Below are positions 31,152-34,810 of a DNA stretch of 64,000 bases, piece by piece. The translations under genes were made by a program, and so were the position numbers. The stretch lies in NCBI RefSeq assembly GCF_019711615.1, contig NZ_JAIGNS010000001.1, positions 868,001 through 932,000 on the forward strand. The letters run 5' to 3'. The DNA is from Qipengyuania intermedia (GTDB taxonomy: Bacteria > Pseudomonadota > Alphaproteobacteria > Sphingomonadales > Sphingomonadaceae). How positions within the stretch are numbered: position 1 is the stretch's first letter; each line of letters opens with the position of its first letter. The notes beneath the pieces were generated by a model. That model worked only from the letters and a program-made list of their open reading frames with translations. It was not told the origin of the DNA and made no database searches.

Positions 31152-31790
31152 TCAGCTGGCGTCGATGGCTGGCGGGTTGCTGCACACGCCGCCTTCTTCG
31201 TCCTCGCTGCCGCCAAGCTGCGTGAGGACCAGCACGCCGCCTACCACCAGGACGACGAAGGCCGTGGTGACGAGGCCGAGGTACTTGTCGATCACCTGCT
31301 TGATCGGCGCCCCGAAAACGCGGAACAGGATGCCCACCGTCATGAAAATGAGGGCGCGGGCGAACAGGCTCGACAACACGAAGGTGACGAGGTTCATGCC
31401 GACGAAGCCCGCGGTAATGGTCAGCAGCTTGAATGGGACCGGTGTTGCCCCGGCGATAAGGATCGCTTCGAAGTCGTATTCGCGCAGATGACACGCCGCG
31501 ACAGGGAATGCCTCGGTCAGGCCGAGCGCCCCGATCAGCCACGCCCCCACGGTGTCGTACAATCCCCACCCGATCGCATAGCCGAGCATGGCACCCGCGA
31601 CCGAGGCCAGCGTCGCGACCAGAGCGAACTTCACCGCCTTCTTCGGTTCGGCAAGGCACATGAGGCCAAGCAGCGGATGCGGCGGGATCGGGAAGAAGGA
31701 GGATTCGATGAAGCAGAAGAATGCCAGCCACCAGACCGCATGCGGATGCGCGGCCTTGTCCATTGTCCAGTTGTAGAGGCTACGCAGCAT
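31152..31790 (-). CDS. YqaA/DedA-type (VTT domain) inner membrane protein
   Basis: A 212-residue polytopic protein of the YqaA branch of the SNARE-associated/VTT superfamily. It contains FIESSFFPIPPHPLLGLMCLAEPKKA near residue 29 and ILIAGATPVPFKLLTITAGFVGMN near 115, the paired re-entrant-loop motifs of DedA-like flippases or scramblases, plus a C-terminal hydrophobic helix. Probably involved in membrane lipid handling; not experimentally defined for this subgroup. Convergent with the Crp/Fnr gene, one base apart. Confidence 0.87.
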   Translation of the reverse strand: MLRSLYNWTMDKAAHPHAVWWLAFFCFIESSFFPIPPHPLLGLMCLAEPKKAVKFALVATLASVAGAMLGYAIGWGLYDTVGAWLIGALGLTEAFPVAACHLREYDFEAILIAGATPVPFKLLTITAGFVGMNLVTFVLSSLFARALIFMTVGILFRVFGAPIKQVIDKYLGLVTTAFVVLVVGGVLVLTQLGGSEDEEGGVCSNPPAIDAS

Positions 31791-31864
31791 GTTCGGTTGA
31801 CCCTCGAAATCGAAGCCAGCGGACTAAGGCAGAGGAGCCGAGTAGGCAAGCGCCACCGTATAAC

Positions 31865-31904
31865 CTATTTGGTTCTTTTTTCTTGACATCGTGACGCTAT
31901 TTGG
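31865..31904 (+). repeat. Two direct CTATTTGG repeats flanking a -35 element
   Basis: CTATTTGG occurs at 31865-31872 and 31897-31904, exactly 32 bases (about three helical turns) apart, bracketing the TTGACA at 31883. Same-face spacing is what a dimeric or cooperative DNA-binding regulator would use. Regulator unknown. Confidence 0.4.
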
Positions 31905-31911
31905 CTAGACA
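31883..31911 (+). promoter_or_regulatory. Sigma-70-type promoter of the GTA remnant
   Basis: A perfect -35 TTGACA (31883-31888), a 17-base spacer and TAGACA (31906-31911) as -10. The expected transcript start is near 31918, giving a leader of about 85 bases before the small-terminase-like gene, with a stem-loop in it. Confidence 0.5.
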
Positions 31912-31942
31912 AATCAAACATCGCGATAGTGTGATTCACTCG

Positions 31943-31968
31943 AAAGGGCGGCCGACAGGTCGCCCTTT
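31943..31968 (+). terminator. Leader hairpin (terminator or attenuator-like)
   Basis: AAAGGGCG (31943-31950) pairs perfectly with CGCCCTTT (31961-31968), 10-base loop, followed by TGCGTTTC. It sits in the leader between the promoter and the first gene. It could be an attenuator, the 3' end of a short RNA, or a barrier to incoming transcription. Confidence 0.45.
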
Positions 31969-32003
31969 TGCGTTTCATACGTCCGCCGGATCGGGAGGGA
32001 GCC

Positions 32004-32633
32004 ATGGGAAAATCACGATCTTCTGCCCGCCACGCCTGGGAAGCCGCGTTCCTCAAGGCATTGCGTGAATATGGAAAGGTCAATGCAGCTGCGCACGCCG
32101 CCGGAATAACCACCGGGCCGCCCTATAACAGGCGCAAGGTCAGCGCCTCCTTCGATGCACAATGGAAGGAAGCGCTCGCTGTCTACAAGAGCGGGAAAAG
32201 CAAGCGCATCCGTAATAGCGAGGACCGCCCCGCCCCGCGCCAGTGGAAACGCGTCTTCCTCGACGCGCTCGCGGAAACGTCCAATGTCGCAGGCTCGGCA
32301 AGGCAGGCGGGTATTGCCCCGCGCGTGGCCTATCGCACCCGTCGCATTTGCGACGACTTCGCCGCCGACTGGCGCGCCGCGCTGTTCGAAGGATATGCCA
32401 ATCTGGAAATGGAAGTGCTCGGATACCTTCGCGATCCGGCCCCTACTCACAAGATGGATGTTACCGCGGCGCTGCGCCTGCTCGCGGCCCACAAGGAAAC
32501 GATCGCGCAGGAACGCGCCACCCGCGCCAATGTCAGCGCCGCCGAGGTCCGTGCCTCCATCGAACGCAAGGTCGACGAATTGCGCAAGAAGGTCGCCGGA
32601 CGCGACATCCAGCCGGAGCGCCCGCACCCATGA
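32004..32633 (+). CDS. Small terminase-like DNA-binding protein with duplicated HTH module
   Basis: A 209-residue basic protein. Two similar segments, residues ~8-55 (HAWEAAFLKALREYGKVNAAAHAAGI...FDAQWKEAL) and ~77-125 (RQWKRVFLDALAETSNVAGSARQAGI...FAADWRAAL), each form a helix-turn-helix of the phage small-terminase type. The C-terminal part (~140-209) is helical with a possible coiled coil. Its position directly before a large terminase (ATGA overlap) supports a DNA-packaging recognition role. SD GGGAGGGAG precedes ATG 32004. The gene itself appears intact. Confidence 0.8.
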   Translation: MGKSRSSARHAWEAAFLKALREYGKVNAAAHAAGITTGPPYNRRKVSASFDAQWKEALAVYKSGKSKRIRNSEDRPAPRQWKRVFLDALAETSNVAGSARQAGIAPRVAYRTRRICDDFAADWRAALFEGYANLEMEVLGYLRDPAPTHKMDVTAALRLLAAHKETIAQERATRANVSAAEVRASIERKVDELRKKVAGRDIQPERPHP

Positions 32634-33166
32634 ACCGACCACTGTCGCGCCCCGAGGTCTGGGCGAGGCTCGAGGAGGAAGAGCTGGCCGACCATGTAGG
32701 GGGCATGAGTGAGGGAGAGCTCGGCGAGTTTGCCTATGACTTTCAGAACCATGCGCATGACGGCCAGCTGCCTCCGGAGGGCGACTGGTACATCTGGCTC
32801 GTCATGGCAGGACGCGGTTTCGGCAAGACGCGCGCCGGGTCCGAATGGGTACGCAGCATCGCCGACCGCGATCCCCAGGCGAGAATTGCGCTGGTGGCGG
32901 CCAGTCTCGGTGAAGCGCGCGCCGTCATGGTCGAGGGCGAAAGCGGGATCATCGCCTGCTGCGCGCCCGACAAGAGGCCGACCTTCGAGCCCTCGCTGTG
33001 GCGGATCAGCTGGCCCAACGGAGCCGTTGCCACGCTCTATTCGGCCGCGGAACCCGAGGCCTTGCGCGGTCCGCAGCATAGCCATGCTTGCGGGCCAGGC
33101 GCAGAAGGAGTTTTTCGTCAACGAGGCGCTGGCCCGGATCGACATGCTGCTCAACCCAGTCGTTGA
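32630..33166 (+). pseudogene. Truncated GTA/phage large terminase subunit
   Basis: The first ~152 codons match the ATPase half of a GTA-type large terminase: WLVMAGRGFGKTRAGSEW (Walker A), ARIALVAASLGEARAVMVEGESG, and WPNGAVATLYSAAEPEALRGPQHSHA. The native sequence stops near 33086, before the Walker B and the nuclease domain, and the frame reads on into out-of-frame DUF2793 sequence to a TGA at 33164. Full-length relatives are around 400-plus residues. It cannot package DNA. Confidence 0.85.
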
Positions 33167-33482
33167 GGGAATCCTGTCGGTTCCGCCGGCCGAGCCCACC
33201 TCGGGAGCATGCTATATTGTCGGTGAGCAGCCGACGGACGAATGGGCTGGTCTTGCCGATGCAATTGCAGGATGGATCGATGGGCAATGGACCTTCGCCT
33301 CGCCGTCACCCGGATTGGCAGTACACGAAAAGTCGAGCGGCACATCCTTGCTTTACTCGAATGGCTGGCAGCGCCTGGAAGCGCCAACCACTCCATCCGG
33401 AGGAGACGTCGTCGACGCGCAAGCCCGCACAGCGATCGAGGAACTAGTCGCGCTATTAAGGCAACGCGGCCTATTCGCATGA
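33084..33482 (+). CDS. DUF2793 protein, N-terminally truncated by the GTA deletion
   Basis: A 132-residue frame with the DUF2793 core: AGQAQKEFFVNEALARIDMLLNPVVEG at the start, GACYIVGEQPTDEWAGLADAIAGWIDGQWTF in the middle, and the C-terminal GGDVVDAQARTAIEELVALLRQRGLF. In intact GTA/prophage clusters this gene follows the tail and host-specificity genes. Its own first residues are missing; the ATG at 33084 was created by terminase sequence (the codons for His-Ala) in another frame. No good ribosome-binding site, so expression is doubtful. Confidence 0.7.
   Translation: MLAGQAQKEFFVNEALARIDMLLNPVVEGILSVPPAEPTSGACYIVGEQPTDEWAGLADAIAGWIDGQWTFASPSPGLAVHEKSSGTSLLYSNGWQRLEAPTTPSGGDVVDAQARTAIEELVALLRQRGLFA

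Positions 33483-33679: not shown

Positions 33680-34810
<1,131 letters not shown>

Follow-up and report, generated by a model that had tools for sequence, protein, structure and literature searches.

The RcGTA-like clusters of the Alphaproteobacteria begin with the genes of the small (TerS) and large (TerL) terminase subunits, and end with DUF2793, an arrangement found in the intact relatives of the locus described here. In the excerpted text of PMC10883770, DUF2793 is identified as the tail fibre of RcGTA, and GTA loss and pseudogenisation are reported in many alphaproteobacterial lineages. Costly elements can also be deleted from the chromosome by recombination, as in chromosomal curing by transformation (excerpts of PMC4795794 and PMC5850275).

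The locus analysed here lies in a window of 64,000 nucleotides of the genome of Qipengyuania intermedia, and differs from the intact clusters in lacking the whole segment that separates TerL codon 153 from the start of DUF2793. It resembles the recurrent alphaproteobacterial losses in that many lineages are affected, although the excerpts of PMC10883770 name deletion bias and cheaters, and not one identical pair of breakpoints being reused. The fused loci also differ from the products of chromosomal curing, as presented in the excerpts on that process, in that no imported tract is found at them on average. A further parallel is provided by the human mitochondrial common deletion, a recurrent deletion hotspot at direct repeats, in which the same deletion arises many times, whereas the fused GTA sites have no direct repeat. 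No earlier description of a recurrent, identical GTA junction was recognised in the excerpted literature searched and, as far as this literature shows, the recurrence of one base-exact GTA deletion is undescribed.

The fused locus of Qipengyuania intermedia

Genomes are designated here by G-numbers and GTA loci by L-numbers, with the genome of the window being G000, and its nearest intact relative, G032. The left chromosomal flank is the gene of a VTT/DedA-like membrane protein (31155..31790, minus strand; Pfam VTT_dom, E 2.6e-7, slightly below the curated cut-off), which adjoins the GTA locus in most of the Qipengyuania loci fetched. The right flank, in most of the Qipengyuania loci for which the right side was fetched, is the gene of an OmpA-like outer membrane protein (33680..34810, plus strand; Pfam OmpA, E 2.1e-17; OMP_b-brl, E 6.3e-15). 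This gene contains a long proline run, at positions 34365-34450 of the window, near which the draft contigs of G006, G021, G024, G026, G071, and G076 end.

Between these flanks, the TerS gene is complete (32004..32633, plus strand; phrog_4044, E 3.6e-12), overlaps TerL, and is 94-95% identical to the TerS of G028 and G032. It is preceded by a conserved stretch (31861..32003, plus strand), presumed to be the promoter region, which is near-identical in the fused G000 and G028 and the intact G032, with a mean column identity, together with TerS, of 95% in the three genomes. The initial annotation had described the first gene as retained, which is correct, and the promoter as intact, which holds for the conservation of this stretch, while a consensus scan of it found no match to a promoter of the sigma-70 type.

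The N-terminal 153 codons of the GTA TerL (32630..33088, plus strand; Pfam Terminase_6N, E 7.8e-10, with the match covering only profile positions 2-99 of 215) are 93% identical to the intact TerL of G032, and presumably retain the Walker A motif, but have lost Walker B and the nuclease. The sequence is readable as ...LRGPQHSHA up to codon 153 (33086-33088), and then runs directly into DUF2793 (AGQAQKEFFVNEA), one frame off, at the deletion junction (33086..33091, plus strand), which was located by comparison with the relatives. Judging by these relatives, the sequence can be derived from the left parent as far as 33087-33090, and from the right parent starting at 33091. The TerL frame (32630-33166) is out of register past 33088, and stays open to 33166. 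The DUF2793 gene (33091..33482, plus strand; PF10983, E 1.2e-24) is missing approximately the first 20 codons, including the start found in the intact relatives, and its frame in the window extends from an ATG at 33084 to a stop at 33482.

In 17 intact relatives, by contrast, TerL goes on with WCDE, and DUF2793 is found 12.2-14.1 kb downstream, while G036, G031, and G011, which were included in the same comparison, carry other deletions. The cluster of Qipengyuania flava likewise extends from TerL to DUF2793. The gap in G032 is 12.2 kb long, and is filled by GTA genes, including Phage_capsid (E 2e-92) and Rcc01698_C. Given the TerL identity with G032, the VTT and OmpA flanks common to both genomes, and the presence of these two genes in G032, the window locus is the remnant of an RcGTA-type cluster, following the deletion of approximately 12-14 kb, which begins at TerL codon 153 and reaches the start of DUF2793. 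The fusion of the start of a GTA cluster to its end, as first annotated, is thus confirmed by both the profiles and the intact relatives.

The G032 capsid protein, used as a query, found no match in any of the 14 fused Qipengyuania genomes, while all six intact controls matched, and the portal gene (Phage_portal) is absent from G000 and G028, but present in G032. The search of the rest of the genome that had been recommended at the outset thus recovered neither the capsid nor the portal gene in G000, both of which belong to a working RcGTA-type GTA. Given these absences, the genome of the window should not make GTA particles, as had been predicted for this lineage.

Distribution of the junction among genomes

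Searches for TerL and DUF2793 recovered the same junction in 14 of the 60 Qipengyuania genomes (G000, G006, G014, G015, G019, G020, G021, G022, G028, G029, G062, G070, G076, and G081), and in six of the 127 genomes that represent other genera of the family (G084, G156, G161, G162, G167, and G168, from six genera). The family sample consisted of 129 genomes, including these 127 from outside Qipengyuania, and its counts are based on cut-offs of 1e-20 for TerL and 1e-6 for DUF2793, with the coordinates being read by eye. The junction is also present in 13 of 80 named TerL loci, the other 67 having WCDE, and the fused loci include those of Tsuneonella flava, Erythrobacter ani, E. rubeus, Porphyrobacter sp. 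AAP82, Alteripontixanthobacter muriae, and a Novosphingobium MAG. Two of the named loci (L180 and L257) were left out as repeats of G028 and G162, which leaves 11 further named genomes, and a total of 31 fused alleles without repeats, all distinct in both arms. This recurrence excludes a chance origin of the junction, and the loss can no longer be regarded as a single step private to the lineage of the window, as first proposed, given that the alleles come from several genera.

The register of the joint is common to 28 of the 31 alleles. It is identical in 12 of the 14 fused Qipengyuania genomes, and 2 nt shorter in the other two (G029 and G062), while that of G156 is 1 nt longer. The two shorter alleles were left out of the codon-153 donor, hairpin, and shared-run comparisons, and G156 was kept in the stop, shared-run, and joint-base counts despite its indel.

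In an rpoB tree of 55 genomes, from which G006, G029, G062, G013, and G077 were left out for having a split rpoB or none, each of the 11 fused tips stands as a fused-only clade of its own, which gives 11 such clades, in comparison with a mean of 10.3 when the labels are shuffled. Some of the nodes are weak (0.50 for G000/G032 and 0.16 for G076/G078), so that G000 and G028, and likewise G070 and G076, may each represent one event. At least nine separate Qipengyuania clades carry the junction, besides G006 and G029/G062, which are outside the tree, and fused (7) and other (13) genomes are also intermixed in the Erythrobacter group. The 12-kb cluster is not easily regained, and the distances in the GTA interior speak against the re-acquisition of intact clusters, given that they follow rpoB (r=0.76; 27 intact genomes).

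Other deletions also occur. Partial GTA clusters are found in G001, G031, G036, G066, G068, G072, and G080, and six of the partial deletions have differing breakpoints (L105 in G066, L107 in G068, L043 in G031, L117 in G080, L111 in G072, and L092 in G001). TerL is also fused to DUF2793 at approximately codon 140 in G160 (L278) and codon 134 in G208 (L271), so that not every fusion of this type uses the common base. In G184 (L273), an independent deletion truncates TerL no more than a few bases from this position (AGCCATGCCTGG), and continues into a different GTA gene, which suggests a left-side hotspot in TerL. In two clusters that otherwise look intact, the capsid match is in two pieces (G016:C2:1814908-1816042 and G035:C2:100356-101430), a sign of either inactivation or sequence error.

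Origin of the constant junction

The best explanation, to which we would give slightly less than an even chance, is that a position-specific process has deleted the segment between these two sites repeatedly, recently, de novo, and with base precision. It is supported by the constant register, the scatter of the fused alleles on the rpoB tree, the GTA interior that follows rpoB, and the near-identical left end of the deletion in G184. The lack of any motif or repeat that would make two unlike sites meet stands against it, together with the joining at other positions in G160 and G208.

A number of candidate causes can be set aside. Microhomology-mediated deletion, which had been proposed on the basis of the pentamer GCTTG at the junction, is not supported, given that the identity at the junction is just 0-2 bp in ten intact relatives, compared with 195 or more direct repeats, each 7 bp or longer, that link these two regions in every one of the ten. 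In G032, neither parental site has GCTTG (TerL GCCTGG, DUF2793 TACTCGGG). Base pairing is possible between the TerL and DUF2793 arms, but a hairpin across the joint is barely stronger in 12 fused alleles (-12.6) than in 30 joined intact flanks (-11.9), which speaks against guidance by hairpins or inverted repeats, and is a further point against recurrent deletion. As for a plasmid or phage template, no record matched across the junction at the sensitivity used, and one plasmid and three phages matched on the TerL side only. Ku-dependent joining is not a requirement, since Ku is found in just eight of the 14 fused Qipengyuania genomes, and its absence from the other six, two of which are incomplete, also weighs against the recurrent deletion. 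Ku is patchy in the genus as a whole (33 of 60 genomes). A two-step origin through the GCCAYGC repeat, found in both TerL (SHA) and DUF2793 (RHA) in some genomes, would, judging by eye, need second deletions that differ between clades.

Site-specific recombination agrees with the register of the joint, which is constant in 28 of the 31 alleles. No recognition core common to both sites was seen by eye in the sites listed.

The bases at the joint are numbered here AGYCAYGC(8) 9 10 11 12. In 29 alleles, positions 9-12 read CTGC (10 alleles), TCGC (8), TTGC (5), GTGC (2), and, once each, ATGC, TCGT, ACCC, and CCAC. The TerL parent offers xTG at this point (GCN TGG), while the DUF2793 parent could offer TTG, TCG, ACC, or CCA, with TTG being ambiguous. 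Read by eye, and with the parents known in few clades, bases 9-11 seem to behave as a block that resembles either TerL or DUF2793, which would be consistent with a cut staggered by 3 nt. Given this block-like behaviour and the constant register, a staggered enzymatic cut would be the most likely process. A putative enzyme would cut both conserved sites with a short stagger, and the cut ends would be rejoined, to form the fused TerL'-DUF2793', with a producer becoming a cell unable to make GTA, at a fixed base position. It is more doubtful, and on present evidence improbable, that the Sphingomonadaceae possess or encounter an anti-GTA activity that cuts and joins DNA site-specifically, and excises the segment from TerL codon 153 to DUF2793.

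The strongest alternative, which is conceivable but also unlikely, is that a single old deletion allele passed from species to species by homologous recombination through the highly conserved blocks on either side of the junction, with later recombination trimming the imported tract to almost nothing. Its carriers may have been GTA particles able to hold the short allele but not the cluster. The constant register and nearly constant central bases of the 31 alleles would fit this spread, and the near constancy of bases 11-12 is a possible mark of common descent. Position 9 is a T in 14 of the 29 fused alleles, while GCT occurs at TerL codon 153 in two of the 67 intact named loci, and in none of 34 unfused Qipengyuania sequences, an excess that could reflect common descent, and G000, G006, and G020 are closer at this codon to other fused alleles than to intact ones. 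TerS-TerL also seems to have been exchanged between species, given that, in the unfused Qipengyuania loci, the distances over 360 nt of TerL ahead of codon 153 show no agreement with rpoB (r=-0.04), in contrast with those of the GTA interior. G020 and G076 have non-native left arms, in which TerS-TerL resembles that of another clade. The cargo of GTAs is limited in size. The insertion of islands by transformation falls with their size (excerpts of PMC5850275).

Most of the flanks appear to be native, however, in the fused genomes for which a closely related intact sister is available. In the 50 bp next to the junction, G021 is 100% (left) and 98% (right) identical to its intact sister G005, with values of 94% and 94% for G070 and its sister G078, 94% and 86% for G014 and its sister G016, and 88% and 82% for G000 and the intact G032. 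The fused G084, from another genus, has the residues of the intact G177, of its own genus, on both sides (GPEHSHA, AAQAQKEITHNEA), and bases typical of their own clades can be seen by eye in G070 and G084 less than approximately 25 bp from the junction on both sides. On average, no excess of shared runs was found between fused partners in relation to intact ones (18.0 vs 17.3 on the left and 9.0 vs 8.9 on the right; n=29), and the value for fused partners surpassed the intact value in 16 of 29 alleles on the left and 13 of 29 on the right. Longer runs are found in single pairs of fused alleles, such as G000-G161 (right, 20 vs 10) and L198-L217 (left, 26 vs 16). Seven fused-intact pairs show little donor signal, except at codon 153 itself. 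The donor tract common to the recipients that would be expected of such a spread is thus not found on average, and young losses would leave no time for the trimming of this tract. The native flanks and the lack of a shared-run excess favour recurrent de novo deletion, while the T at position 9, the constant bases 11-12, the longer single-pair runs, and the non-native left arms of G020 and G076 count against it.

The description of the junction as a fossil, in the initial annotation, is doubtful. The examined stretch of TerL' is free of stops in all 31 alleles, as is DUF2793' in 28, with stops being found in G022, L214, and G156. The dN/dS of TerL' and DUF2793', respectively, is low in the fused pairs, at 0.09 and 0.10 in G000-G028, 0.15 and 0.34 in G029-G062, 0.05 and 0.12 in E. 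ani-E. rubeus, and 0.33 and 0.10 in G070-G076, in which the TerL' arms are of different origin. On the assumption of a single deletion per pair, a frame free of stops would be expected under neutrality with a probability of 0.02-0.06 for DUF2793' (three pairs), and of 0.17 and 0.33 for TerL' (two pairs). These open frames and low ratios would be expected if TerS, TerL' and/or DUF2793' were kept for a role, for example, as a tail-fibre-like or interfering protein, in an arrangement favoured by selection, although we consider this to be rather improbable. No start codon at the junction is common to all the alleles, the codon there being ATG or ACG, while TerL' has an out-of-register tail that ranges in length from 10 codons to 100 or more, and function would leave the base precision unexplained, as well as the stops in three alleles. 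The initial annotation had also considered relatives in which this fused arrangement is the functional form, and what was found in the relatives is the arrangement, and not its function.

The remnants of other deletions are equally open, so that open frames may only mean youth. No stop was found in the matched remaining stretches of the six Qipengyuania deletions with differing breakpoints, nor, in eight of nine genomes, in those of the deletions in which the capsid gene was wholly or partly lost. The G036 remnant has two stops, in a stretch where the intact controls also have stops. Given these remnants, the open frames are read here as young losses, with retained function as the rival, and this youth also fits recurrent de novo deletion.

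The remaining alternatives have very little to commend them. A one-off, microhomology-mediated deletion in this lineage, or a single ancestral deletion inherited vertically, would account for the junction itself, but is highly improbable in the face of 31 alleles scattered on the rpoB tree, the minimal microhomology, and an intact interior that follows rpoB. An assembly artefact is the least credible of all, since, while several of the fused genomes are draft or metagenome assemblies, the junction is also found in assemblies of 1-4 contigs (G000, G028, G014, G015, and G020), and the capsid gene was found nowhere in the 14 fused Qipengyuania genomes.

Implications for GTA loss

The persistence of GTA production, despite the expected rise of cheaters, is called unresolved in the excerpted text of PMC10883770. 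The joining of two unlike sites with base precision, in nine or more lineages of a single genus, calls for a mechanism that was not found described in the literature searched. At this locus, a producer turns into a non-producer through a single event, which can be counted, is of a size suited to PCR, and is seen again in many species, so that the rate, cause, and fate of this step in GTA loss become measurable.
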